A stretch of DNA of 64,000 bases, taken from the NCBI RefSeq assembly GCF_013409065.1, contig NZ_JACBZP010000001.1, positions 3,668,518 through 3,732,517 on the forward strand, in the 5' to 3' direction. The stretch is from Spelaeicoccus albus. Its GTDB lineage: Bacteria > Actinomycetota > Actinomycetes > Actinomycetales > Brevibacteriaceae. Shown one piece after another: positions 4,023-62,807 of this stretch. Each line of letters opens with the position of its first letter. Within the stretch, counting starts at the first letter, position 1. The notes under the pieces are model-generated. The model saw only the letters and a program-made list of their open reading frames with translations. It was not told the DNA's origin and made no database searches. The position numbers and the translations under genes were made by a program.

Positions 4023-4030
4023 AATGGGTG

Positions 4031-4147
4031 TTCGGCGGTGTCCTACTCTCCCACATGGTCCCCCATGCAGTACCATCGGCGCTGGTAGGCTTAGCTTCCG
4101 GGTTCGGAATGGGACCGGGCGTTTCCCTACCGCTATGGCCGCCGTAA
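4031..4147 (-). rRNA. rrf: 5S ribosomal RNA
   Basis: The minus strand reads GTTACGGCGGCCATAGCG at its 5' end, then the conserved CCCGGTCCCATTCCGAAC loop, and ends GAGTAGGACACCGCCGAAC, pairing with the 5' end. The length of about 117 nt is normal. It is the third gene of the rRNA operon. End points are accurate to a few bases. Confidence 0.95.
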
Positions 4148-4219
4148 CTGTATCGAAACGATCAACTCTCACGTATTCACTTGTTGTGGTAGTGGATAGT
4201 TGGTTGTGTTTCGGGAACC

Positions 4220-4233
4220 GTATAGTGGACGCG
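4220..4233 (-). other. 3' arm of the pre-23S processing stem
   Basis: The plus-strand sequence gtatagtggacgcg is a perfect 14-bp reverse complement of cgcgtccactatac at 7539-7552, on the other side of 23S. Pairing continues imperfectly outward (ggttgtgtttcgggaacc against agttctcaaaccacaaacaacc). Such stems enclosing 23S are RNase III processing sites in bacteria. Confidence 0.75.
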
Positions 4234-4273
4234 TCATTTCTTGTATTTCAGAAGAAATAGTGTTTTGTGGGTA

Positions 4274-9428
<5,155 letters not shown>

Positions 9429-9682
9429 AAAAAACGAAAAATTCAAACATCCCAGCAAAAACAAACAACCAACGAAAACTTATCCGTCAATCATCAAAAA
9501 TGTTTTCACCAAAACAGCACCCACACCAACCAACAAAAAGGCCAGCCAATGCAGACACCAAAAAAATTTGGCAACACAACATCAAACAAAACACACTATT
9601 GAGTTCTCAAAGAACAGACACACATCGCATAATTACAATTCCTTTTAGCTGGCAATTGTTTTCTGCGCCGTGTTCGATATTT
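9429..9682 (-). other. rRNA leader with boxA-like element and 16S processing arm
   Basis: Leader between the likely promoter and 16S. Read on the minus strand, 9592-9616 gives TGTTCTTTGAGAACTCAATA followed by GTGTG, a boxA-like block familiar from actinobacterial rRNA leaders. Its cactattga (9594-9602, plus strand) can pair with tcaatagtg at 7872-7880 beyond the 16S 3' end. The A/C-rich rest holds no gene. Confidence 0.65.
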
Positions 9683-45881: not shown

Positions 45882-47171
45882 TCAGGCTCCTTCGGCAGTG
45901 TCGGCGGGTTTCGTGTCAGCGACGGCGCCCTCGAGCAGCGCGGGCAGCGCGGCAAGGAATTCGTCGGCCTGCTCAGTCGTCACAATCAGCGGCGGGGCCA
46001 GGCGAATGGTGGCCGGGCCGGGCGCGTTGACGATGAAGCCGGCGTCGAGGCCGCGAGCGACGAGCGCGCCGGACGCCGGGGCGTCCAGGTCGAAGGCGAT
46101 GAGCAGTCCGCGGCCGCGCACTGCCGTCACGTGGTCGAGCCGGGCCAGTTTGTCCGCCAGGTAGCTGCCGACGCGGGCGGCGTTTTCGATGACGCCGTCC
46201 GACTCGAGCGCGTGCAGCGTGGCAAGAGCGGCGGCCGAGGCGACCGGGTTGCCGCCGAATGTGGTGCCGTGTTGGCCCGGCGTGAGCGTGGACGACGGGC
46301 CGGCGCCCAGCGTGATCATGGCGCCGATCGGGAATCCGCTGCCGAGCCCCTTGGCCAAGGTGATGGCGTCGGGCAGGTCGGCGCCGCTGCCCAGAATTCC
46401 CGGATAGGCGAACCAGCTGCCGGTGCGCCCGATGCCGGTCTGCACTTCGTCGACGATGAGCAGCACACCGGCCGCGCGGGTCAGTTCGCGTGCCGTGCGG
46501 AGGTATTCCGGGCTGAGGGGCCGGACGCCGGCCTCCCCTTGGATCGGTTCGATCACGAGCGCGGCCACCGTGTCGTCGAGAGCGTCCGCGAGCGCATCTG
46601 TGTCGTTGAAGGCGATGTGCTCGACGCCGCCGGGCAGCGGTTCGAACGGTTCCCGATAGGCCTGCTTGGCCGTCAGTGCCAGGGCGCCCATGGTCCGGCC
46701 GTGGAAGGCGCCGTCGAGCGCCAGGATTCGCGTGCGGCGTCCGGACGGGTCGGCTTTTCCGTGGGCGCGCGCCAGTTTGAATGCGGCCTCGTTGGCTTCG
46801 GTGCCCGAGTTGGCGAAGAACACCTTGGACCCCGTCGGGGCGCCGCTGATTTGAAGGAGGCGTTCGGCAAGGGCCACCTGGGTGGGGCTGGTGAAGAAGT
46901 TGGACACGTGGCCGAGCGTCGTCAGCTGGCTGGAGATGACCGACGTGACGAACGGGTGGGCGTGGCCGAGCGCGTTGACGGCGATACCGCCGAGCAGGTC
47001 GAGGTAACGGCGTCCCTGGTCGTCCCACACGTAGGCACCCTGGCCGCGCACGAGTACGCGCTGGGGCGTGCCGAACACGTTCAGCAGCGAGCCGGAGTAG
47101 CGGTCGAGCCAGCGGGCGGCCGAGTCGGGGGTGCCGGCCGGGTGGGTGAGCGAGTCGAGTTCGGCGGTCAC
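45882..47171 (-). CDS. argD: Acetylornithine aminotransferase
   Basis: 429-aa class III PLP-dependent aminotransferase. The pyridoxal-phosphate lysine is in [17 protein letters not shown] (about residue 268), and [18 protein letters not shown] and [11 protein letters not shown] are typical. It converts N-acetylglutamate semialdehyde to N-acetylornithine. Start GTG 47171 overlaps the argB stop as GTGA. Confidence 0.96.
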
Positions 47172-48097
47172 TGCAGTTTCCTTTCGTACGGTTCCACGTC
47201 GTCGTCGGGCAGCACCATGGTGCCGATGCCCTCCGAGGTGAACACCTCGAGCAAGATCGAATGGGCGAGCCGGCCGTCGACGATGTGCGCCTGCTTGACG
47301 CCGCCGCGCACGGCTTTCAGCGCGGCTTGCATCTTTGGGATCATGCCGGAGGCGAGGGTGGGCAGCATGCCTTCGAGGTCGGTCACTCCGATCACGGAGA
47401 TGAGCGAGTCGGTGTCGGGCCAGTTGGCGTAGAGGCCTTCGACGTCGGTGAGGACGACGAGTTTCTCGGCGCCGAGTTCGGCAGCGACGGCTGCTGCGGC
47501 GGCGTCCGCGTTGACGTTGAGCACCTGCCCGGCCGGGCCGTCGATGTCCGGCGCGATGGACGAGATGACGGGGATCCGGCCGGCGTCGAGCAGGTCGTCG
47601 ACGGCTTGCCGGTTGACGCCGACGACCTCGCCGACGAGGCCCAGGTCGACGACGTCGCCGTCGACTTCGGCGGTAGTGCGGCGGGCCTGCAGCAAGGCGG
47701 CGTCTTCGCCGGACAGTCCCACTGCGTGCGCGCCGCGGGAGTTGATACGGCCGACGAGTTCGCGGCCGACCTGGCCGGTGAGCACCATCCGGACGACGTC
47801 CATGGCCTCGGCGGTCGTCACGCGCAGGCCGCCGCGGAATTCGGATTCGATGCCGAGCTTTTCCAGCATCCGGGAGATCTGCGGGCCGCCGCCGTGCACG
47901 ACGATGGGCCGCAGTCCGGCGTAGCGCAGAAACAGGATGTCGTCGGCGAACGCTTGTTTGAGTTCATCGCTTTGCATGGCGTTGCCGCCGTATTTCACGA
48001 CGACGGTGGCGCCCTGGAACTGTTCCAGCCACGGCAGGGCTTCGACGAGGACGGCGGCCTTGGACTGGGCCATCTCTAGGCGGGCGGAAATGCTCAT
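47168..48097 (-). CDS. argB: Acetylglutamate kinase
   Basis: 309-aa amino-acid kinase. [10 protein letters not shown] (about residues 32-41) and VHGGGPQI (about 71-78) are the nucleotide and substrate loops, and the C-terminal MIPKM signature is present. The longer frame reaching 50092 is a read-through of an argJ/argC shadow and is not real. Start ATG 48097 overlaps the argJ stop as ATGA. Feedback inhibition by arginine is likely in this cyclic pathway (argJ present). Confidence 0.96.
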
Positions 48098-49245
48098 GTC
48101 GAGTATGCGCTGTTCTCTTCGACGTAGTCGTGGGTCAGGTCGGATGTCCAGATTGTGGCGTCGCTGCTCCCGGCGTGCAGGTCGATCGTCACGCTGACGG
48201 CGCGCGGGGTGAGGTCGACGGTGGCCGGGTCGGCGTGCGGCGTGCCGGCTTTGCACACCCACACGTCGTTGACGGCGACGTCGACTTCGGCGGGGGTGAA
48301 TGCGGCGTCCGTGGTGCCGATGGCGGCCAGCACGCGTCCCCAGTTGGGGTCGTTGCCGAACACGGCGGCCTTGAACAGGTTCGAGCGGGCGACGGCGCGG
48401 GACGCCGTGACGGCGTCGGTCTCGGTGGCGGCGCCCCGGGTGGTGATGGCGATGTCGTGGTGGGCGCCTTCGGCGTCGGTGTGCAGTTGCGCGGTGAGCT
48501 GCGCGCAGGCCTCGGTGACGAGTGCGGTGAGGTCGGCGGCGTCCGGGGTGATGCCGGAGGCGCCGGAGGCCATCAGCACGACCGTGTCGTTGGTGGACAT
48601 GCAGCCGTCGGTGTCCAGACGGTCGAATGTCTGCGCGCAGGCAGTACGCAGGGCGCCGTCGAGGGTGGCGGCGTCGACGTCGGCGTCGGTGGTGAGCACG
48701 ACCAGCATGGTGGCCAGGCCCGGGGCGAGCATGCCGGCGCCCTTGGCCATGCCGCCAACCGAGTACCCCTCCCCCGCGAGCTCGACGGTTTTGGCGTGCG
48801 TGTCGGTGGTGATGATGGCCCCGGCCGCGTCGTCGCCGCCGTCCGCGGAGAGCCGGCCGGCCGCGGTGGCGACTCCGGGAAGCAATTTGTCCTCGGGCAG
48901 CGGCGCGCCGATCAGACCGGTCGAGCAGACGACGACGTCGGACGCCGAGATGCCCAGTTCCTCGGCGACGGCTTCGGCGGTGCGGTGCGTGGTTTGGAAT
49001 CCGGCCTGGCCGGTGTAGCAGTTGGCGCCGCCGGAGTTCAGGACGACGGCGTGCACGATGCCGTCGGCGGAGACTTGTTCGCTCCAGAGCACGGGGTTGG
49101 CCTTGCAGCGGTTGCCGGTGTAGACGGCGGCGGCGTTGTGGCTCGGTCCGTCGTTGACGACGAGCGCCAGGTCGGGTTTGCCGCTGGGTTTCAATCCGGC
49201 GGTGACGCCGGCGGCGCGGAAGCCGTGCGGGGTGGTGACGCTCAT
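48094..49245 (-). CDS. argJ: Bifunctional ornithine acetyltransferase / N-acetylglutamate synthase
   Basis: 383-aa N-terminal-nucleophile enzyme that cleaves itself into two chains at the Thr of [18 protein letters not shown]. It recycles the acetyl group from acetylornithine to glutamate. Start ATG 49245 overlaps the argC stop by 4 nt; the longer upstream frame is rejected. Confidence 0.95.
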
Positions 49246-50324
49246 GGTGCGACTCCTTGGGTGGAAAGGCCTGTGGTTTCGGGGATGCCGAGAGCGATGT
49301 TGACGGCTTGGATGGCCTGGCCGGCGGTGCCCTTGACGAGATTGTCGATGGCGGACGTGACGACGACGCGGCCGGCGCGCTCGTCGACGGCCAGTTGGAT
49401 GAGGGCGCTGTTGGCCCCGAGCGTCCAGGCAGTGGAGGGCCACTGGCCGTCGGGCAGCACGGAGACGAATGCCTCGTCGGCGTAGGCGTCCGTGAGGGCG
49501 GCTCGGAGTGCGACCGGGTCGGTCCCGGCCGTGATCTTGGCGCTGATGGTGGCGAGGATGCCGCGGGCCATGGGCACGAGGGTGGGGGTGAACGAGAGTC
49601 TGATGGGGCCGGACGCCGGGTCGGCGCCGATGGACCAGTTGAGGTTTTGTTCGATCTCGGGCTGGTGGCGGTGCACGCCGCCAACGCCGTAGGGGCTGGC
49701 CGAGCCAAGAATTTCGGAGGCCAGCAGGTGAGTTTTGGCGGACTTGCCGGCGCCGGACGGGCCGTTGGCGAGGACGGCAACGAGGTCCGCAGGGTCGATT
49801 GCGCCGGCGGCCAACAGCGGGGCCACGGCGACGGTGACGGCAGTGACGTTGCAGCCGGGCACGGCCAGGCGCGTCGCGCCGGCGAGCGTCTCGCGTTGTT
49901 TGCCGGCGGGAAGCACGAGTTCGGGCAGACCGTAGGCCCAGCTGCCGGGGTGGTGACTTTTCGGTAGGCCCTGGCCGTAGAACTTGGCCCAGCTAGCGGC
50001 ATCGACCAAGCGATGATCGGCGCCGAGGTCGACGATGAGGCTGCCCGGGCTCGTGGCCTCGAGTTCGGCTGCGATGGCACCGGACGCACCATGCGGCAGC
50101 GCCAGGAAGATGACGTCGTGGCCCGCTAGGTTGCCCGCAGTGGTGCCCTGGAGCTGCATGTTGGCGTATCGGCGCAGGTGCGGCTGGTGTTCACCGAGCA
50201 GCGAGCCGGCATTGGAGTTGGCAGTGACGGTGCGCACATCGAGCTCGGGGTGGCCGGCGGCAAGGCGCAGCGCTTCTCCCCCGGCATAGCCGGTGGCGCC
50301 CGACACGGCAACGGAAAAACTCAT
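49242..50324 (-). CDS. argC: N-acetyl-gamma-glutamyl-phosphate reductase
   Basis: 360-aa enzyme: Rossmann opening [17 protein letters not shown] (residues 5-21) and the catalytic Cys in [11 protein letters not shown] (about 157). First gene of the operon. There is no Shine-Dalgarno sequence; TATATT ends exactly 7 nt before the ATG, so the mRNA is probably leaderless. An ARG-box palindrome begins 5 bp upstream of the start codon. Confidence 0.96.
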
Positions 50325-50415: not shown

Positions 50416-51282
50416 TCATTGGGGTGTTGACGATGCGGCGCGCTCCCACAGCCCGCCTAATTCACTATCCAGCGAATGGGGCTCAAACGGTTTCATGCCA
50501 CCTTCCGGATACGGCGTGATTTCACCGAAATATACCGTTCCATGAACTTCGTAGAGATCAACCCGAATGAAGTCGAAAGTGCGGCCAAGGTCGGCAGCAG
50601 CAGCCAGCATTTTACTGAGCCCACCGGGTGCTTCTTGGACCGAAGCCATCGGGAAAACGTTCGTATAATCTAACGGTTGCCATTCCGTAGTATAAAATCG
50701 GCGTTGGTGGCCAGAGAAGCGATCGCTATCTACTTGAATCAGCCGAGGAACTCCGCCGAAAACGTAAAATTTGTAGTCGTTAATCACCTGGCCGTTCCCA
50801 AGGTGTTCTTCAACGAGAAAGCATTTTTTAGCCTCGCGGTATGCCCACTCGCCGAAGTATGCTCTTTCATAAACACGCAGCCATCCCCTCGTACTCTTTG
50901 CAAGCTGAACGAGATCTGGCGCACCCTCGCCGAAGTAGACTGCCTGGCTCCTGTGATTCGGCTTGAGAACCCACTTCAAAGGTAGTTTCCGACTGCAAAG
51001 ATCCGCAAGGTTGTCACCGAACCAAAGCGTCTCTGGAATACGAGCATTGGATGTGTTTTCGCGGGCGAATTCTTTCATTTTCAATTTATCGCATGTCCAT
51101 GCCATTTGTTTTGAATGGTCGTTCAGCATGCGAACTTGTATTAGCTCAGTAAACAGTTCTGGGTTTTTTAGATGCGGCAATCGGCCGAATTTCCGTGCAT
51201 AATACAGGCGCCGAATCACGCGATCAGGCAACAGTCCAACAAGTCGCGTACAAAAAACAGACGTACCTAATAGCGACGTCAT
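50416..51282 (-). CDS. TupA-like ATP-grasp ligase
   Basis: 288-aa protein of the TupA-like ATP-grasp family (PF14305). Typical segments are KLPLKWVLKPNHRSQAVYF, KKCFLVEEHLGNGQVINDYK and DFIRVDLYEVHGTVYFGEIT, the last holding the metal-binding acidic residues. Family members are predicted to add amino acids to surface polymers; TupA of Bacillus halodurans is linked to teichuronopeptide, a polyglutamate-polyglucuronate polymer. It sits at the edge of the polysaccharide locus with ugd nearby. The ATG at 51282 gives the family's length. Confidence 0.83.
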   Translation of the reverse strand: MTSLLGTSVFCTRLVGLLPDRVIRRLYYARKFGRLPHLKNPELFTELIQVRMLNDHSKQMAWTCDKLKMKEFARENTSNARIPETLWFGDNLADLCSRKLPLKWVLKPNHRSQAVYFGEGAPDLVQLAKSTRGWLRVYERAYFGEWAYREAKKCFLVEEHLGNGQVINDYKFYVFGGVPRLIQVDSDRFSGHQRRFYTTEWQPLDYTNVFPMASVQEAPGGLSKMLAAAADLGRTFDFIRVDLYEVHGTVYFGEITPYPEGGMKPFEPHSLDSELGGLWERAASSTPQ

Positions 51283-51312: not shown

Positions 51313-54300
51313 CTATCCGGCGGGTGTGAGTCGGATCGTCCACATCACAGCTCGATTGCTAGTGGCGTCAGTAGTAGCAGTCAGACCTCCTTGGGCCCCA
51401 TCCAAAACCGGGCCCCCGGAATCCGCGGCCAAAATCGCATAATGACCACCGCCAGTACCAGCCGCGGTATCACGCTGCTTCACCCCCGCCGGCGCCGTCC
51501 AAGCAGTCGTCGAACCAGACTTGTCTGCCCAATACGACACAACCCAGTCCCCAGCCGCAGCATCAAGCGCCGGAGTAGTGTGATCAGTAGTACTGCTATC
51601 ACCGGCATGCGCAACAGCCTGCCCATCAAGCTTGCTGGCATCAACCCCGGAATACACGACCACCGACAACACCGACTTGTGATACGCCGCATAATCCATG
51701 CGCACCTCGGCCCCAGCATCACCAGCAGCGACGGTCTTCTTCCACACCGTCGAGGACACATTCCCGTTGTCGAACGAATCAACCTCTGTCCATCCGGTCA
51801 CCCCGCTCGGCCCCGTCGTCGTCATACCAGACGGAGCACTAAACGTCAGCAGCATCACGTCACCAGAAGACGCCGCCGAAGGAACCGTCAACTCCTTATG
51901 GGTAGACGACCCCGTCCCCGAATGCGCCGCACCAACAAAACCCAACGTATTCGCAGTCGGAGCCGAAACCGTCACGTCATGCGACACCGTATCCGTCGCA
52001 CCGTCATTGTCCTTGACGGTCAACTTCACCGTGAAAGTACCAGCGTCGGAATAACTATGCGACGGCGTAACGCCCTCGCCCGTCTTCCCATCACCGAAAT
52101 CCCACGAATACGAAGCAATCGACCCATCGGAATCCTTCGACCCCGACCCATCAAACGCGCACCCATTACCCTGACAATCCGACGTAAACGCCGCCGACGG
52201 AGCACTATTCGGCGCCGGCTCTCCGGCTGGTGTGAGTCGGATCGTCCACATCACAGCTCGATTGCTAGTGGCGTCAGTAGTAGCAGTCAGACCTCCTTGG
52301 GCCCCATCCAAAACCGGGCCCCCGGAATCCGCGGCCAAAATCGCATAATGACCACCGCCAGTACCAGCCGCGGTATCACGCTGCTTCACCCCCGCCGGCG
52401 CCGTCCAAGCAGTCGTCGAACCAGACTTGTCTGCCCAATACGACACAACCCAGTCCCCAGCCGCAGCATCAAGCGCCGGAGTAGTGTGATCAGTAGTACT
52501 GCTATCACCGGCATGCGCAACAGCCTGCCCATCAAGCTTGCTGGCATCAACCCCGGAATACACGACCACCGACAACACCGACTTGTGATACGCCGCATAA
52601 TCCATGCGCACCTCGGCCCCAGCATCACCAGCAGCGACGGTCTTCTTCCACACCGTCGAGGACACATTCCCGTTGTCGAACGAATCAACCTCTGTCCATC
52701 CGGTCACCCCGCTCGGCCCCGTCGTCGTCATACCAGACGGAGCACTAAACGTCAGCAGCATCACGTCACCAGAAGACGCCGCCGAAGGAACCGTCAACTC
52801 CTTATGGGTAGACGACCCCGTCCCCGAATGCGCCGCACCAACAAAACCCAACGTATTCGCAGTCGGAGCCGACACCGTCACGTCATGCGACACCGTATCC
52901 GTCGCACCGTCATTGTCCTTGACGGTCAACTTCACCGTGAAAGTACCAGCGTCGGAATAACTATGCGACGGCGTAACGCCCTCGCCCGTCTTCCCATCAC
53001 CGAAATCCCACGAATACGAAGCAATCGACCCATCGGAATCCTTCGACCCCGACCCATCAAACGCGCACCCATTACCCTGACAATCCGACGTAAACGCCGC
53101 CGACGGAGCACTATTCGGCGCGCCAGCAGGACTACCGTTGTAAAGGAACAGTGCACGGGCTCGCCAGTCCACGCCGTCGCTATCGGGTCCGCTCACAACG
53201 CTCGACTCTCCGGTAACGGCGTCGTCCGCAAAATCAACGGCGTGCAAGTTCCCGTCAGCCTTGGTCACGTAATAGAGCTTGCCTCCGGAGTAGAACATTC
53301 CGTCTGCATCGCTGAAGTCGACGCTGCTGGATACAGTCGCATGTGTCTCATCAACGATGCCGCTATCAGGTGAGAACCACCGCCACTGCAAGTTTGGATT
53401 GCCGAATTCCGTATAGTAGAGCTTGCCAGACTTATAGAACATTCCTGTAACATTCGGAAGTTCGCCGTATAGAGATGGATACGCGCCGTCAAACGTCGTC
53501 GTTCCGACCCCTGTGCGCACGTTGGCCCATGCGGGATCATGGTACGGATCATATTTCACGTCCGGGCCCCACGTGGCTCCGTCGAAGGTACGCGAATGCA
53601 GAAAGTTGTCAGTAGAGCCGTAGAAGACCTTGTCACCGACCATAAATGCACCACGCGCCTGACCCCACGGTATGTCGCCATTGCCAACGTCGGTAGGAGT
53701 TGACGCCGTCGTTCCGTCAAACTCGACGCGTGAAACTCCGTTTACGTTGCCAGCTGGTGGCGCCTGCTGGTCTGTGCGCACGATTTCGATGCCGCTGACT
53801 AGAGGGTTCTCCGTAACATGACCAAACGAGATCGTCACGTCACCGTCTGCTGGAGCGGTGATGTCTTTCGACTTCATCGTTCCCGTCTGGTCTCCGACGT
53901 CAGCGACAAGATCTTCATTGTTGAGCCACGTCTGCCCATCAAGGCTGACGTTGAACACTCGTTGGCCGGCCGCCGAAGTACAGCTACACCGATTGGCTAA
54001 ATAAACACGGACTTGAACAGGGGTGCCGGCAGCAACTGGGAAATTCCATTGCATCTCCGGGTCATCCGAAGGATCCCATCGTTCGCTGTCGAAAATAGCC
54101 GACGGCGTGCTGGAGGGAACGCTGGAGTCAAGCACCGCGCCCGGATCATATGTTGCCGAATTACTACCGGAATTCCGATTCGGACTTGTAGCCGCAGTAT
54201 CGGCGGTCCAGTCGGGGCCATTGTCCACAGCTTGTATAGCGGGGCCTCCAGCATTCACGCGATATAGCACGTTGCTATTAGCAGATTTTGCTTGTGTGCC

Positions 54301-55671
54301 TGCAAGGAACAAGGAGCCCGGCAACGTACCTGTAGCGGTGGAGGCCGACTTCGATCCACCGTCGTAGGGGAAGAAAGCTATTTTTGAGCGCTTATATTTA
54401 TAGTTGCCGATCCAGTCTGTATTGGAACCAAGGTAGATACCATCTTTTGTGGCCAAGAAGTTGTACACCCAGGCTCCCAACGGCACGCGCCCGGGATTCC
54501 AGCTCAGCGGTCGCCCGCTTATCGGATCTAATGCCGCTAACCCTGGCCTAGGGACTGCACCAGCGGACGCATGATCCACTCCAAGTGGATCGTTCCCCCA
54601 CCTCTCGTGTCCGCCGATGAAAATCGCCGCATCGGTTACAGTAACTCCTTGGAGGCTATCGCCCCCGGTTTCCGCGATCCATGTGGGCTGGACGTCGGTA
54701 CCCTGGGCATCGGTCTTCCATTTCGCAGCGGCGTCGCACAGCGTACCGGGGTTACCCCCTCCGGTGGAAGTCACAACGAAATAGGATCCGTCGGGCGAAA
54801 ATGAAACGCCACGCACAGTGTCGCTGAAAGCCCAGCTGAAGCACGTCGGTTGATACCGGGTCGTGTTCCAGTTTTGGTCGACCGTCGCTGACTGACCCGT
54901 GAGGTCGATCATCACTATCTGATCGCGTTGCAGACCATCAACCTGGGCGAAATTCCCAATCGCCACCATTGTGTGACCGTCAGCCGTGACGTCGAAACGC
55001 CGGACGCCGACCCAACCGACCGTTTCAGGGTTGTGCTGGCCAGAAACTTGAAGGTTCATGAATGACTGCACGGCACCTGAATCGGCATCGAGAGAGGCTA
55101 AACCAGCGTGCGGCTGTCCACCCACGCGTGAAAATGTCCCACCAACGTACAGTCTGTCGCCCCGTAGGGTGAGGTCCCGCACTTCCCCGTAATTAAAGCT
55201 GGGTGTCGTCCAGCCAGAGACGATGGTTCCCGAACTTAGATCGAGAAGCGCCAAGTCGGTGACGCTGACATTTCCGATCTTCGTAAAATTGCCGCCGACG
55301 TAGACGGAATGATCGTTAGGCCCGGGTGCTACCGCATTTACTATGCCATTCACAGATGGATTGAACGATGTGGATAGTGCACCAGTATCGGCATTGAACG
55401 CCGCTACGTGATTATACGTTTGGTTGTTGACCGACGTGAAGTCTCCACCCATCACAATCAAGTTGCCGACTTTGGACATTGACTGCACGTCACCATTATT
55501 GACCTGGGGCGTTTTTGTCGACGGAACATCATTCGGGATAGTGCGACTTGACGGGCCAGGGTCCGGCGGTTGCGATGCCTGGGCAGAACCTACAGGGGTT
55601 ATAGTCAGAAAAAACGCGGCAAGTATCGCGGATAACATCGCTGCCAAAAGTGCACGGATTGGAGCTTTCAT
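51313..55671 (-). CDS. Large secreted multidomain surface protein (propeller, malectin, duplicated PKD/jelly-roll)
   Basis: 1452-aa exported protein. Residues 1-32 are a signal peptide ending GSAQA. Residues 40-460 hold WD/delta-60-like blades (repeated VGGxF[TS] motifs such as VMGGDFTSV and VYVGGNFTKIG), 470-635 a malectin-like carbohydrate-binding domain (VLYRVNAGGPAIQAVDNGPDW, GDVTISFGHV), 640-845 a second propeller-like part, and 850-1452 two nearly identical units each with a PKD domain (SYSWDFGDGKTGEGVTPSHSY) and a jelly-roll. There is no LPxTG or C-terminal anchor, so it may be free or held by polysaccharide. It is encoded within a polysaccharide locus; binding or display of glycan is inferred. 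Confidence 0.85.
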   Translation of the reverse strand: MKAPIRALLAAMLSAILAAFFLTITPVGSAQASQPPDPGPSSRTIPNDVPSTKTPQVNNGDVQSMSKVGNLIVMGGDFTSVNNQTYNHVAAFNADTGALSTSFNPSVNGIVNAVAPGPNDHSVYVGGNFTKIGNVSVTDLALLDLSSGTIVSGWTTPSFNYGEVRDLTLRGDRLYVGGTFSRVGGQPHAGLASLDADSGAVQSFMNLQVSGQHNPETVGWVGVRRFDVTADGHTMVAIGNFAQVDGLQRDQIVMIDLTGQSATVDQNWNTTRYQPTCFSWAFSDTVRGVSFSPDGSYFVVTSTGGGNPGTLCDAAAKWKTDAQGTDVQPTWIAETGGDSLQGVTVTDAAIFIGGHERWGNDPLGVDHASAGAVPRPGLAALDPISGRPLSWNPGRVPLGAWVYNFLATKDGIYLGSNTDWIGNYKYKRSKIAFFPYDGGSKSASTATGTLPGSLFLAGTQAKSANSNVLYRVNAGGPAIQAVDNGPDWTADTAATSPNRNSGSNSATYDPGAVLDSSVPSSTPSAIFDSERWDPSDDPEMQWNFPVAAGTPVQVRVYLANRCSCTSAAGQRVFNVSLDGQTWLNNEDLVADVGDQTGTMKSKDITAPADGDVTISFGHVTENPLVSGIEIVRTDQQAPPAGNVNGVSRVEFDGTTASTPTDVGNGDIPWGQARGAFMVGDKVFYGSTDNFLHSRTFDGATWGPDVKYDPYHDPAWANVRTGVGTTTFDGAYPSLYGELPNVTGMFYKSGKLYYTEFGNPNLQWRWFSPDSGIVDETHATVSSSVDFSDADGMFYSGGKLYYVTKADGNLHAVDFADDAVTGESSVVSGPDSDGVDWRARALFLYNGSPAGAPNSAPSAAFTSDCQGNGCAFDGSGSKDSDGSIASYSWDFGDGKTGEGVTPSHSYSDAGTFTVKLTVKDNDGATDTVSHDVTVSAPTANTLGFVGAAHSGTGSSTHKELTVPSAASSGDVMLLTFSAPSGMTTTGPSGVTGWTEVDSFDNGNVSSTVWKKTVAAGDAGAEVRMDYAAYHKSVLSVVVYSGVDASKLDGQAVAHAGDSSTTDHTTPALDAAAGDWVVSYWADKSGSTTAWTAPAGVKQRDTAAGTGGGHYAILAADSGGPVLDGAQGGLTATTDATSNRAVMWTIRLTPAGEPAPNSAPSAAFTSDCQGNGCAFDGSGSKDSDGSIASYSWDFGDGKTGEGVTPSHSYSDAGTFTVKLTVKDNDGATDTVSHDVTVSAPTANTLGFVGAAHSGTGSSTHKELTVPSAASSGDVMLLTFSAPSGMTTTGPSGVTGWTEVDSFDNGNVSSTVWKKTVAAGDAGAEVRMDYAAYHKSVLSVVVYSGVDASKLDGQAVAHAGDSSTTDHTTPALDAAAGDWVVSYWADKSGSTTAWTAPAGVKQRDTAAGTGGGHYAILAADSGGPVLDGAQGGLTATTDATSNRAVMWTIRLTPAG
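51323..52215 (-). repeat. 893-bp tandem duplication, copy 1 (3' copy of the gene)
   Basis: Near-identical to 52229-53121 at an offset of 906 bp (302 codons). The only base difference I noticed is A at 51967 against C at 52873, a silent change in a Val codon. Copy 1 encodes the C-terminal PKD plus jelly-roll unit. Confidence 0.93.
52229..53121 (-). repeat. 893-bp tandem duplication, copy 2 (5' copy of the gene)
   Basis: Second copy of the repeat in the large secreted protein gene, encoding the first PKD plus jelly-roll unit (about residues 850-1147). Thirteen non-repeated bases separate the copies. Confidence 0.93.
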
Positions 55672-56710: not shown

Positions 56711-57811
56711 GTGATTAGTGCTGACTCACGCGGCTATAGAATGCGAGATATGGCTTCCCGCTGGCGCAATACCGTCACGCGCCTTCCCAACGGCTATCGG
56801 CTGGGGAGGCTCATTGGCGTTACGCTCGTATGCGTCGGCATGTTGTCCACGATTTCGTGTTCGACGAACCTCACGAAGCCGGCGTCCCCCACCGCGACCG
56901 CACAAGCACAGTCCCCTGCATGCGACTCAGACTCTTGCCGAGTGAAATGGGGAGTCGCGGTGCCGAATGGGTCCGCGTCGGATGTCCACACCCTCGAACA
57001 ACGCCTAGATCAGCGTTTCGACTTCGTCTACACGTATCACGACATCGACGGAGTCGTACCCAGTCACGACGAAAAGAAGATCACGCAGTCGGGGCACCAG
57101 CTACACATTTCAATCATCCCGCGAGACTTCGCAGCCGCGGACAAGAACACAATCAAATGGAAAGACGTAGCCCAAGGCCGTTACGATGCAGATCTGACTC
57201 GGCAAGCCCAGGGAATCGCTGAGTTGCCGGGAACGGTTTACGTTACGTTCGACCATGAGCCTGACCAGACGGCAAAACGGGCTCGAGGCACCGTTTCGGA
57301 TTATGTCTCAGCTTGGCGCCACGTCCACCATTTGTATCGTCGTCTCGGCGTCGACAACGTAAAATGGGTTTGGGTCATGATGGGTTGGAAGCCCGCCTAC
57401 AAGCGCGCTGGACAGCTGTGGCCCGGCAACAAGTACGTCGATTGGATCAGCTGGGAAGCTTATAACCACTCCGGCTGTCAGAGCAATGCCGTGAGTCCGA
57501 CAAAAGAGACTACGTTCAGCTCGACAATCAAGCAGACCTTTCGCTGGATTCATCGCGTTGGCGCCAAGTACGGAATCGACGCACGAAAACCGATGATGAT
57601 CAGCGAATCTGCCACAGTACTCTATCCTCAAGACCCTGAACGTACTGCTCAGTGGTACGCCGACATCCCTCGTGTCCTAAGTAAGTATCCGCAGATTCGG
57701 GCAATCACGCTCTTCGACCTCGACGTCGACGATTGCAACTTCAGGTTTCAAGAGCAACCACGTGCACTCGCAGCCGTCCGGGACGCAATGACGTCCACGC
57801 GCGGTGGCTAG
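56711..57811 (+). CDS. GH26-like glycoside hydrolase lipoprotein
   Basis: 366-aa protein. The lipobox is LSTISC (Cys at about residue 50). The catalytic part resembles family 26 (beta-mannanase-like) clan A hydrolases: the acid/base Glu is in YVTFDHEPD, the nucleophile Glu in PMMISESATV, and WISWEAYNHSGC lies between. Such proteins in polysaccharide loci may trim or release the polymer. ATG 56711 is the longest start; inner Mets at residues 11 and 14 are alternatives. Transcribed away from the 55790-56542 lipoprotein gene. Confidence 0.8.
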   Translation: MISADSRGYRMRDMASRWRNTVTRLPNGYRLGRLIGVTLVCVGMLSTISCSTNLTKPASPTATAQAQSPACDSDSCRVKWGVAVPNGSASDVHTLEQRLDQRFDFVYTYHDIDGVVPSHDEKKITQSGHQLHISIIPRDFAAADKNTIKWKDVAQGRYDADLTRQAQGIAELPGTVYVTFDHEPDQTAKRARGTVSDYVSAWRHVHHLYRRLGVDNVKWVWVMMGWKPAYKRAGQLWPGNKYVDWISWEAYNHSGCQSNAVSPTKETTFSSTIKQTFRWIHRVGAKYGIDARKPMMISESATVLYPQDPERTAQWYADIPRVLSKYPQIRAITLFDLDVDDCNFRFQEQPRALAAVRDAMTSTRGG

Positions 57812-58591: not shown

Positions 58592-58929
58592 TCTGGCAGT
58601 ATCCCACCGTTCACTGTCGGCATGGTGGGGTAATTCGCTCCAACCGGACTCCAACGGTACCCCGTTATGCCTGAATTGCTACTTTGGCCTAGCCAAACGC
58701 TACTCGACTTCCGCTGAGCTCTACTCGACTCCACAAAATCGCATTTCCGCCGGCCGTTCTTCGACCAATAATGGTGATCAACCGTTATCCCCGGCCCAAC
58801 ACTCGGGCCCTAGGAAAAATATGTGCAGCGAGGTCTCATTATGGTTTTACAAATCGCTCCAACACACTATTCAACCCCCAACCTCTCCGTCGTCCGGAGC
58901 CTCAACCGATCTGCAATGGTGGAGTCAGC

Positions 58930-60243
58930 ATGACGTCAATATCGGTAGTCGGATGCGGTTATCTTGGCGCAGTCCACGCCGGCGTACTTGCCTCTCTCGG
59001 GCATGAAGTAGTTGGAATCGATGTAGACGCAAGCAAGGTCGACAGTCTGACGCTGAGTGAACCACCTTTCTACGAGCCGGGATTAAACAAGCTGCTGGCC
59101 GATTCGCAGGCGAGCGGCCTCCTTCGATTCACTACAGACTTCTCATCGGCAAAAGGCGCAACAGTCCACTTTGTGTGTGTCGGGACGCCGCAACGTGCCG
59201 GCGAGTTGGGTGCAAATCTCGACTACGTGAATTCTGCCGTGGCCTCGCTATCCACGCATCTCAACCACGGAGACTTGATAGTCGGCAAATCCACAGTGCC
59301 CGTCGGCACCGCAGAAATGCTAGCCAAGTCGATAGCGTCGGCGCCCGGGGCGTCGCTCGCGTGGAATCCCGAATTTCTACGCGAGGGGCATGCCATCGAG
59401 GACAGCATCAGCCCGGACCGTCTTGTCTATGGAGTCGAAGAAGGCGAAGTTGGAAGGCGTGCCGTAGCAAGTCTCGATGAGGTCTACGCTCAACTGTTGA
59501 AGCGCGGGACAAAACGTTTAGTCACTGACCGCGCTACGGCCGAAATGGTCAAAACCGCGGCGAATTCATTTCTCGCCACGAAAATTTCATTCATTAATGC
59601 CATGGCGGAATTATGCGAAGCAGCCGGAGCCGATGTGGCGCAGCTCGCCGACGCTATTGGAATGGATGATCGCATCGGCCGAAAGTTTTTAAACCCAGGT
59701 TTAGGATTTGGTGGCGGATGTTTGCCAAAAGACATCCGGGCGTTCATGGCCCGCGCCGGAGAGCTCGGCGCCGATCAAGCTCTCACCTTTCTCCGCGAAA
59801 TCGACTCAATCAACATGCGCCGCCGGATTCGTATGGTCGACTTGGCGAGAGAAGTCTGCGACGGTTCGTTTATCGGCCGGAAGATCACAGTTTTGGGAGC
59901 TGCCTTCAAGCCAAATAGCGACGATGTACGGGACTCCCCCGCCTTGAACGTCGCCGCGCAGATCTCACTCCAGGGAGGCGACGTGACCGTCACCGACCCC
60001 CGGGCAATCGACAACGCTCGCAAGTTGTTCCCCAATTTATCGTATAACGCGAACGTATACGAAGCGCTTGAGCACACCGACGCCGTACTGCTCCTCACCG
60101 AGTGGGACGAGTACCGCGAGTTGGATCCCGCCGATATCAAACGACTAGTCGGCCGTGCCGCTGTTCTGGACGGGAGAAACGTCCTCGATCCGCAGAAATG
60201 GCGAGAAGCAGGATGGCTGTATCGAGCGTTGGGACGACGATGA
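58930..60243 (+). CDS. ugd: UDP-glucose / nucleotide-sugar 6-dehydrogenase
   Basis: 437-aa enzyme. The NAD loop GCGYLG is at residues 8-13, the catalytic Cys at C264 in GFGGGCLPKD, and EFLREG and the C-terminal NAFKPNSDDVRDSP-type block (GAAFKPNSDDVRDSPAL) are present. It oxidises UDP-glucose to UDP-glucuronate, a precursor for acidic polysaccharide. ATG 58930 follows GGTGGAG; the 53-codon upstream extension is not real. First gene of a plus-strand operon; the stop overlaps the next start (ATGA). Confidence 0.94.
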   Translation: MTSISVVGCGYLGAVHAGVLASLGHEVVGIDVDASKVDSLTLSEPPFYEPGLNKLLADSQASGLLRFTTDFSSAKGATVHFVCVGTPQRAGELGANLDYVNSAVASLSTHLNHGDLIVGKSTVPVGTAEMLAKSIASAPGASLAWNPEFLREGHAIEDSISPDRLVYGVEEGEVGRRAVASLDEVYAQLLKRGTKRLVTDRATAEMVKTAANSFLATKISFINAMAELCEAAGADVAQLADAIGMDDRIGRKFLNPGLGFGGGCLPKDIRAFMARAGELGADQALTFLREIDSINMRRRIRMVDLAREVCDGSFIGRKITVLGAAFKPNSDDVRDSPALNVAAQISLQGGDVTVTDPRAIDNARKLFPNLSYNANVYEALEHTDAVLLLTEWDEYRELDPADIKRLVGRAAVLDGRNVLDPQKWREAGWLYRALGRR

Positions 60244-61244
60244 ACGACCGTCAAATTACCGATCCCGGGCTGCCGACGCTACTCGTTGCGACGTCTGGCG
60301 GCCACCTGGAGCAATTACGAAATTTGTACCCAAGGTTCCTGCCTGAGTCAGCGTCAGTCGAATGGGTGTCACACACGAGCGAACAGCTAGAGGCGCTCAA
60401 AATGGCCGGGCACGTCGTGCATGAAGTTCCGTACATCGGTCCGCGAGGCTACAGGGCGTTGACGCAAAATATTCAGCCGGCGCTCCGCCTGTTACGCGCG
60501 AATCGGTACGCTCGTATCATCAGCACTGGCGCCGGAATCGCAATCCCGTACGCGTTAGCCGGCAAATTGTTCCGGACGCCGTACCACTATATCGAGAGCC
60601 AAACACGCCTGAACGGTCCAAGTTTTACCGGCAACCTGCTATCCAGACTGCCGAACATCAATTTGTATGCGCAGAACGAGTCGTGGGCGAACTCGAAGTG
60701 GCGATACCGAGGCAGTGGTATCGACGGTTATACTGCCGAACGCGTCAGCCCGCCAAGGCACGTTTCGCGCGTAGTCGTCACTCTCGGTACTATGCGCAGA
60801 TACGGATTTCGCCGCGCTATCGAACGACTGCTGCGGGTGCTGCCGACAGTCGTCGACCCGAATGCCGAAATACTCTGGCAAACCGGCTGCACCGACGTCA
60901 CTGGTCTCAACATCAAGGCGTATCCCAAGGTGCCCGCTAACGATTTACAGGACGCGATAGGTGCCGCCGATTTGGTCGCCATGCATGCCGGCGTCGGGTC
61001 GGCACTGGTCGCGCTCAAGCACGGCAAAGCCCCCATTCTCATGCCACGCCAATCGGACTTCGGTGAGCACATCGACGACCACCAGGCCCTTCTCGCCAAC
61101 GAATTATCCGAACGGGGCCTTGCGATCGCAACGTCGCCCGACGCCCTCACCCGGGAGCACATCATCGACGCGCTGAGTACTAAGGTCCTGCGCGAAGTAC
61201 GACCGCCCAAATTTGAGCTCGCGACCACACAGGGGACGTCATGA
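60240..61244 (+). CDS. Fused ALG14/ALG13-type (PssD-PssE-like) glycosyltransferase
   Basis: 334-aa protein. The N-terminal half resembles ALG14/PssD (LLVATSGGHLEQL at residues 14-26, AGIAIPYALAGKLFRTPYHY), the C-terminal half ALG13/PssE, a GT-B glycosyltransferase 28 C-domain (VVVTLGTMRRYGFRR, MHAGVGSALVALKHGKAPIL). In many bacteria the two parts are separate proteins that form a membrane-bound transferase, for example the PssDE glucuronosyltransferase. With ugd upstream, UDP-glucuronate is a likely donor. It overlaps both neighbours by 4 nt. Confidence 0.85.
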   Translation: MNDRQITDPGLPTLLVATSGGHLEQLRNLYPRFLPESASVEWVSHTSEQLEALKMAGHVVHEVPYIGPRGYRALTQNIQPALRLLRANRYARIISTGAGIAIPYALAGKLFRTPYHYIESQTRLNGPSFTGNLLSRLPNINLYAQNESWANSKWRYRGSGIDGYTAERVSPPRHVSRVVVTLGTMRRYGFRRAIERLLRVLPTVVDPNAEILWQTGCTDVTGLNIKAYPKVPANDLQDAIGAADLVAMHAGVGSALVALKHGKAPILMPRQSDFGEHIDDHQALLANELSERGLAIATSPDALTREHIIDALSTKVLREVRPPKFELATTQGTS

Positions 61245-62206
61245 ATCAACATCGCAAGGATGACACAGCGACAATCGCAGAGCGAAGTCCACTCCAGCGT
61301 CTCCCACTTGTCTCTGTCGTAATTCCCACTTACAACCGCCCCGATTTCCTACGTCAGGCGCTGGCGTCAGTTCTTAACCAGGACTATTGCGGACCAATTG
61401 AAGCAATAGTCGTCTTCGACAAAACCGAACCTGACTACAGCCTAGAGAGCGAGCGATCCGACAGGAGTGTTCGCGTCTTCCGCAACACACGAACGCCCGG
61501 CCTTGCAGGAAACCGAAATTCCGGGATTCTTAAAGCCACGGGTGAGCTTGTCGCGTTTTGCGACGACGATGACACGTGGCGTCCGAATAAGTTGTCGTCA
61601 CAAGTCCGCGCACTGCACGATTCACCGCAGCACGACTTCGTCACGACTGCCATGGCCGTCGACTTCAAGTCGAAGACGATCGACCGGCTCGCGGGCCGTA
61701 CTGAGGTCGATCATTCAGCGTTTTTCACGTCTCGAATGGCTATGCTGCACTCGTCTTCATTTATGGCTCGTCGATCGGCCTTCTTGGGCGATCTTGGCCT
61801 TGTCGACGAGACATTGCCGCAAAGCATGGCCGAAGACCGCGAACTGCTCATACGCGCGACCCAACTCAAGCCAATATTGCACGTTGACGAGCCCCTCATC
61901 AATGTCCGTTGGGCCGAAACGTCGTATTTTGCCCAAGACTGGAAAGTTCGGAATGAGGCTAGCTTGTGGCTGCTCAAGCGCTATCCGGAACTTCACCAAA
62001 ATCGTACCGCTGCTGCATTATCGTACGGCAAATTGGCATTTGGAAACGCTGCCCTGCGCCATCGCCGTGAAGCGCTCAGCTGGGCTCGTCGCGCGTTCAA
62101 GGCTAATTGGCGCGAGCCGAGAACCTACCTGGCGACTGCGGTCGTTAGCGGCCTCAGCTGGCGCTGGGTAATGAAGCAGCTGAATGGCCGCGGTCGTGGA
62201 ATCTAA
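61241..62206 (+). CDS. GT2 family glycosyltransferase
   Basis: 321-aa GT-A fold transferase. VSVVIPTYNRPDFLRQALAS is the opening, with the acidic metal motif FCDDDDTW (residues 107-113) and the later AEDREL. The donor and acceptor are unknown. It has no membrane span. The ATG overlaps the preceding stop as ATGA. Confidence 0.9.
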   Translation: MNQHRKDDTATIAERSPLQRLPLVSVVIPTYNRPDFLRQALASVLNQDYCGPIEAIVVFDKTEPDYSLESERSDRSVRVFRNTRTPGLAGNRNSGILKATGELVAFCDDDDTWRPNKLSSQVRALHDSPQHDFVTTAMAVDFKSKTIDRLAGRTEVDHSAFFTSRMAMLHSSSFMARRSAFLGDLGLVDETLPQSMAEDRELLIRATQLKPILHVDEPLINVRWAETSYFAQDWKVRNEASLWLLKRYPELHQNRTAAALSYGKLAFGNAALRHRREALSWARRAFKANWREPRTYLATAVVSGLSWRWVMKQLNGRGRGI

Positions 62207-62807
62207 CGCCGGAACCGATCGTGACCGGACAACGACGGCACCCAGTGTGACTAACACACTAACCCGTCTCCCGAAGACTCTCATTACTCCCGCCCGCATG
62301 TTTTTCAGAGTACGTCGGCGCTGGTACCTTTTCCGATACCCGAATCTAACTATGGCGCAGGACGTCATGGTCCAAGGCCGCTTGAAAATTCGTGGCAAAA
62401 CACACGTCACGCTCGGCTCAGGAATTCGGATCCGACAAACTGTGCGCGTTACCGGTAACGGGGTACTAAATGTGGACAAGAACACAATGCTAAACGGGTG
62501 CTGGATAATTGCAAGCTCACAAGTGCAAATTGGGGAAAATTGTCTGATTTCTGACTGCGGAATCACTGATAATGATTATCATAACCTTCATCCAGTTGAC
62601 CGACACCGTAAACCGACGAAAAAGACGCGCTCCCCTATATCAATAGGCTCGAACGTGTGGATTGGACTTCGCTCGATTGTGCTAAAGGGCACGACGATCG
62701 GCGACGACAGCGTGATCGGCGCGGGTTCGGTAGTACACGGAGCCATTCCATCCGGAGTGGTGGCCGCAGGAAATCCAGCACGTATTATCAAGCACTTCGA
62801 CAACTGA
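62184..62807 (+). CDS. Hexapeptide-repeat O-acyltransferase
   Basis: 207-aa protein with left-handed parallel beta-helix repeats (ISIGSNVWIGLRSIVLKGTT, IGDDSVIGAGSVVHG) and the closing GVVAAGNPARII typical of O-acetyltransferases. It probably acetylates the polymer or a precursor sugar. ATG 62184 overlaps the GT2 gene by 23 nt; a GTG near 62247 (MTNTLTRLPK) is an alternative start. Confidence 0.85.
   Translation: MAAVVESNAGTDRDRTTTAPSVTNTLTRLPKTLITPARMFFRVRRRWYLFRYPNLTMAQDVMVQGRLKIRGKTHVTLGSGIRIRQTVRVTGNGVLNVDKNTMLNGCWIIASSQVQIGENCLISDCGITDNDYHNLHPVDRHRKPTKKTRSPISIGSNVWIGLRSIVLKGTTIGDDSVIGAGSVVHGAIPSGVVAAGNPARIIKHFDN

Follow-up and report, generated by a model that had tools for sequence, protein, structure and literature searches.

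Near-identical C-terminal domain twins, probably homogenised by recombination, in a secreted protein of Spelaeicoccus albus

Introduction

The stretch of Spelaeicoccus albus DNA analysed here, which is 64,000 nucleotides long and is referred to below as the window, contains a gene that ends in two almost identical copies of a two-domain unit. This raises the question of whether the duplication is real, and if so whether the copies are alike because they were made recently or because recombination within the gene keeps them alike.

Genomic neighbourhood

The gene lies within a stretch of about 56% GC, next to DNA of 65–70% GC. The gene and its neighbours are as follows.

50416..51282, − strand: TupA-like ATP-grasp enzyme (Pfam PF14305, E 5.5e-33)
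51313..55671, − strand: the whole gene, 1452 residues (open reading frame and translation; Pfam PKD_4, Malectin and Rax2)
56711..57811, + strand: secreted glycoside-hydrolase-26-like (GH26-like) protein; three related loci also have a homolog of it close to the gene
58771..62807, + strand: UDP-glucose/GDP-mannose dehydrogenase, two glycosyltransferases and a hexapeptide transferase (extracellular polysaccharide locus)

Past the end of the window lie genes for Wzz, a Wzy-like protein, a sulfotransferase and a bacterial sugar transferase, and the homologous loci likewise contain glycosyltransferases, sulfotransferases, APS kinase or a TauE-type exporter. Because of these neighbours, in the window and in the homologous loci, the gene is likely to act at an extracellular, perhaps sulfated, polysaccharide.

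A sharp fall in GC at about 50300, from about 70% to 56%, accompanies the change from arginine-biosynthesis genes to the polysaccharide locus and resembles the boundary of a genomic island. The 974-residue open frame at 47168–50092 (− strand) has an amino-acid kinase domain solely in residues 696–939; its first 690 or so residues have no Pfam match and could be an open frame that arose by chance at high GC. A complete 5S-23S-16S rRNA operon is present at 4030–9430 (− strand), and no tRNA genes were found within the whole window. In three homologous loci (L056, L057 and L062) a small conserved gene with no Pfam match is located directly downstream of the homolog, almost touching its stop codon.

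Domain structure

The protein consists of a signal peptide (identified by inspection), a β-propeller which Pfam identifies as Rax2-type, a malectin domain, a second propeller-like region, and two successive PKD-JR units, in that order.

53122..55671, − strand: N-terminal 850 residues; homologs occur in several families within the same order, and the best matches over the full length have 41–58% identity
53797..54270, − strand: malectin domain, residues 468–625 (Pfam PF11721, E 8.8e-11), predicted to bind carbohydrate
52216..53121, − strand: unit 1, 302 codons, comprising PKD (residues 851–935) and the all-β JR (residues about 938–1149)
51313..52215, − strand: unit 2, PKD and JR as in unit 1, closing with the stop codon

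PKD is identified in two stretches by Pfam PF18911 (E 1.2e-44; 150.6 bits against a curated cut-off of 27). JR makes up the remaining 210 or so residues of each unit, and has no match in Pfam, NCBIfam or PHROGs and no sequence match in the PDB. The AlphaFold models are confident as predictions, with pLDDT values of 93.0 for the unit and 94.7 for JR, and in them JR is all-β; fold searches with JR gave no clear solved relative, the best being KduI with Z 5.8. The first-pass annotation had described the unit as a PKD plus jelly-roll module of 302 codons. Its PKD part is borne out by the Pfam match, while the modelled fold makes a jelly-roll plausible but unproven.

The protein ends TIRLTPAG directly after the second JR, and inspection of the translation found neither an LPXTG motif nor a C-terminal membrane segment; it is therefore safer to describe it as secreted than as surface-anchored. 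The earlier description of a surface protein thus agrees with the signal peptide-like N-terminus but is not matched by an anchor. The protein may be held in place by carbohydrate binding. Because it belongs to a polysaccharide locus and has domains of carbohydrate-binding type, its doubled end is most likely a pair of linked binding or spacer modules.

The tandem repeat

Comparison of each base i with base i + 906 gave exact runs at 51323–51966 (644 bp) and 51968–52215 (248 bp), confirming the two copies originally reported. The single mismatch inside the tract, A at 51967 and C at 52873 on the + strand, reads GTT versus GTG on the coding strand, both of which encode Val, so that the claim of one silent difference also holds. 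The repeat has a period of 906 bp (302 codons), and the reported 893 bp refers to the near-identical part alone, in which 892 of 893 bases match, far above chance.

52229..53121, − strand: near-identical tract, copy 1 (893 bp), with its lone silent difference at 52873
51323..52215, − strand: near-identical tract, copy 2 (893 bp), with the difference at 51967
52216..52228, − strand: diverged junction of the two copies (coding-strand sequence AGCCGGAGAGCCG), aligning with copy 2 where that copy ends in the stop codon

The copies remain weakly homologous as far as 51312, which is past the stop codon. The sequence is GCCGGA-TAGC at the end of copy 2 and GCCGGA-GAGC in copy 1, and two of the three differences between the copies fall within the last 11 nt. 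In the repeat region, no shift other than 906 scored. The unit has no further copies in the 4.03-Mb single-contig genome, and no match in plasmid DNA.

Homologs and the number of JR domains

Relatives of the N-terminal 850 residues are found in several families of the order, and are commonest in one of them (f17, 24 of 188 genomes). There is no homolog among the sampled members of the window organism's own family, where sampling was of one genome per species and the window genus is represented by one genome. Among 34 JR-bearing genes, 22 have one JR and 12 have two; between species the number is 1 or 2 and never three or more. Genes with at least three JR would be expected in some cases under unequal crossing over alone. 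The first-pass annotation had suggested that copy number may differ among strains; the counts here, with one genome per species, concern differences between species.

The two JR domains are 98–100% identical as DNA in 8 of the 12 two-JR genes, which represent about six lineages: 99.8% in the window, 99.8% in G099, 99.5% in G179, 99.4% in both G297 and G723, 99.1% in G376, 100% in G711 and 98.4% in G749, where G numbers denote genomes. The near-identical twin ending is therefore found in seven genes and assemblies beyond the window gene, from five other lineages, and in every near-identical gene the identity of the copies reaches the last codons, 0–13 nt from the stop. The other four pairs have diverged to 63–77% nucleotide identity (G703 66%, G620 63%, G691 67.5% and G741 77%). 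Modules of different lineages share about 25–45% of their residues, and in a tree the near-identical copies cluster by gene. The closest relatives of the window gene (in G689, G738 and G739) have a single JR.

At loci L060 and L061 (G099 and G179) and at L059 (G092) the gene occurs as two paralogs side by side. The second paralog in G099 and G179 has no malectin match, a single JR and no codon shift of the kind described below.

Concerted evolution within genes

G297 and G723 have a common layout of 4xPKD-JR-PKD-JR, and the linker between their copies is almost the same (TLVLAPGDSPPPANVAPSAAFTLPPCDQL; 96% amino acid identity over 25 codons), so that the duplication seems to predate the split between these species. 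Nevertheless, the copies within each gene are only 0–1 base apart over about 825 bp, against 9% between the species, including 39 of 172 fourfold sites. G099 and G179 are comparable: they have a homologous linker, GGEGGDGT-EPP, their copies differ within the gene by 2 bases in 1178 (G099) and 8 in 925 (G179), and between the two species by about 5%. From these comparisons the duplication appears to predate the species in two genera. In G376 the JR part alone is homogenised (about 99%), and the adjoining PKDs have diverged.

The copies are alike within the gene, 5–9% apart between species, and joined by a common linker. We therefore conclude that recombination inside the gene keeps the copies alike in G297 and G723, in G099 and G179, and in G376; in other words, that this is intragenic concerted evolution. 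Homogenisation is not universal across the family, as is clear from the four two-JR genes whose copies have diverged.

A synonymous codon island

The near-identical tract of the window gene also has unusual codon usage. Third positions in the N-terminal half of the gene are A.16, C.34, G.25 and T.25, and in the unit they are A.03, C.16, G.46 and T.35. The shift is abrupt at the unit boundary, and over the last 27 or so codons of the unit the usual codons of the gene resume.

52303..53136, − strand: codon-shifted island of copy 1 (residues 846–1123), where G and T predominate at third positions and A is almost missing; copy 2 has the same island 906 bp downstream on the coding strand

A change-point analysis was carried out with one copy removed and compared with 300 synonymous shuffles. 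In all eight near-identical genes the change-point exceeded all 300 shuffles, and it was located 0–21 codons from the start of the tract. The positions of change-point and tract start, in codons, are 846 and 851 for the window, 1137 and 1137 for G297, 1141 and 1141 for G376, 1168 and 1171 for G723, 332 and 342 for G711, 928 and 947 for G749, 846 and 827 for G099, and 933 and 912 for G179. Only 4 of the 26 other genes exceeded all shuffles (G712, G741, G225 and G700), giving a Fisher p of about 3e-5, in which the eight genes represent about six lineages and are not all independent. G712 has a codon island despite its single JR. In the six twin-copy genes of the G/T type the island stops 11–36 codons ahead of the unit end, and in G297 the edge of the shifted codon usage is in the middle of a PKD.

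Several causes of the shift were considered and rejected. Domain type does not account for it, in that PKDs lying elsewhere in these genes, outside the tract, show no shift. As a general cause, mRNA structure fails because folding energies, compared with recoding using codons of the N-terminal half, gave mixed signs (z of +5.8 and +4.8 for G099 and G179, −2.8 for the window, and others within 2). Hypermutation of the tract is not supported, fourfold divergence being lower there than elsewhere, 0.23 versus 0.32–0.52 for G297/G723 and 0.07–0.10 versus 0.14–0.32 for G099/G179. In no tract did the coding strand contain a classical G-quadruplex motif (four runs of three G).

In a different PKD-array gene, in G072 (locus L156, 4064–10246, + strand), third-position G likewise rises over a pair of PKDs that are 98.5% identical. 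A short way downstream of the pair, the frame of this gene appears to run through a string of N.

Direction of the shift and replication strand

The shift is toward G and T in the window, G297, G723, G376, G749, G711 and G712, and toward C in G099 and G179. The genes of the window, G711 and G376 are placed on the leading strand by the position of dnaA, and those of G297, G723, G712 and G749 by contig GC skew with the gene masked. For the window, whose masked GC skew is close to zero, the call is based on dnaA and on rRNA orientation. In G099 and G179 the gene and mfd point in opposite directions, and mfd lies on the leading strand in 7 of 7 placeable genomes; the masked GC skew of G099 agrees with a lagging placement. 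The lagging-strand template is relatively G-rich in every case, a pattern that is no more than suggestive, as it includes a single lagging lineage.

Discussion

We think it probable that the window holds a real C-terminal tandem duplication of PKD and JR, homogenised by recombination, in a secreted and probably polysaccharide-associated protein. The PKD-JR pair would have been duplicated in tandem at the C-terminus, and recombination within the gene would then hold the two units near-identical. That the pair is an artefact of assembly, with one copy in reality, is very improbable. Near-identical tandem repeats are indeed hard to assemble, and the first-pass annotation had warned of this risk, but here it is low: the genome is a single contig, the copies can be told apart at 51967/52873 and by their ends, where one bears the stop codon, and seven other assemblies show the architecture too. 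Typical short-read assembly errors, moreover, collapse repeats rather than adding copies. More serious is the possibility, which we rate as real but short of probable, that a single and very recent tandem duplication occurred in the window lineage, with the silent change arising later and no continuing homogenisation. This would fit both the one substitution in 893 bp and the single JR of the closest relatives, but would call for many independent and very recent events to explain the seven further near-identical twins in five other lineages, and it sits poorly with the seemingly pre-species duplications that are homogenised in two genera. The original suggestion of either recent duplication or ongoing conversion was therefore right as a pair of alternatives. 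Homogenisation is established in the homologs (0–8 bases within genes, 5–9% between species), and the window gene fits either alternative, the two being inseparable there because it has no close relative among the sampled genomes. By analogy with the homologs, homogenisation by intragenic recombination would be the likeliest history of the window pair as well.

On this preferred reading of intragenic homogenisation, the codon island that begins at the tract edge would be a mark of the homogenising process, or of selection on the recombining DNA. Instead, the tract with its island could have been acquired from a foreign donor of different codon usage and doubled afterwards, an explanation that competes with our reading of the island and not with the duplication itself. 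Import would explain why the edge is abrupt, even within a PKD in G297, and why usual codons resume near the unit end. We nonetheless consider it unlikely, since the islands of different lineages are dissimilar in DNA (about 43–56% nucleotide identity), the divergence of the tract between G297 and G723 is no greater than that of the rest of the gene, and the occurrence of a like shift in several lineages would need repeated imports of a similar kind. A more speculative proposal is that, within this bacterial order, self-homogenising domain cassettes of secreted proteins carry a strand-oriented synonymous signature, with a lagging-strand template that becomes G-rich over the recombining tract, arising via asymmetric conversion or repair or via selected recombination-promoting DNA. 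We put this forward tentatively and regard it as rather doubtful; if it is true, a codon island could locate actively recombining gene segments from one genome.

Concerted evolution is itself already known. What is new here is comparative, namely the intragenic concerted evolution of terminal domain twins together with an island of codon usage. Near-identical terminal twins in six lineages provide a natural test of the speed of in-gene repeat conversion in bacteria, and of whether a copy number of two is maintained by selection. That the edges of the codon shift coincide with those of near-identity, even in the middle of a domain, would not be expected if translational selection were at work. 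Were this coincidence to hold generally, it would link synonymous composition to recombination and provide a sequence-only marker of length-variable extracellular proteins. In titles and abstracts, nothing was found on codon shifts in bacterial domain repeats.

As described in the relevant passages of two papers (PMC8201768, PMC9704523), Periscope Proteins are extracellular, bacterial, single-chain proteins with highly identical tandem folded domains, whose repeat identity is thought to allow intragenic recombination and length change. The window protein resembles them, as so described, in being a chain with highly identical tandem domains (892/893 bases, period 906). It differs in that its family has one or two PKD-JR units only, that its units are at a free C-terminus whereas Periscope repeats form a stalk between adhesin and sortase anchor, and that no C-terminal surface anchor, whether LPXTG or a membrane segment, was seen in it. 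The codon usage of the repeats is not discussed in those passages of the two papers that match the search terms. In the spider silk gene AcSp1, repeats within one gene are homogenised at the nucleotide level and form species-specific clusters (PMC3933166). Intragenic homogenisation at the nucleotide level is common to both cases, but AcSp1 has many silk-protein repeats, while the present case is bacterial, with two copies of a folded pair of 300 residues, and its homogenised tracts bear a sharp codon-usage island.

Unlike PKD-domain secreted proteins, the window protein was found to contain no peptidase domain, and it has a propeller-malectin-PKD-JR architecture in a polysaccharide locus, a combination on which a literature search found nothing. 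Its PKD is similar in sequence and fold to those of bacterial collagenases and of the S-layer protein 1l0q, and it shares with the latter the joining of a propeller to a PKD.
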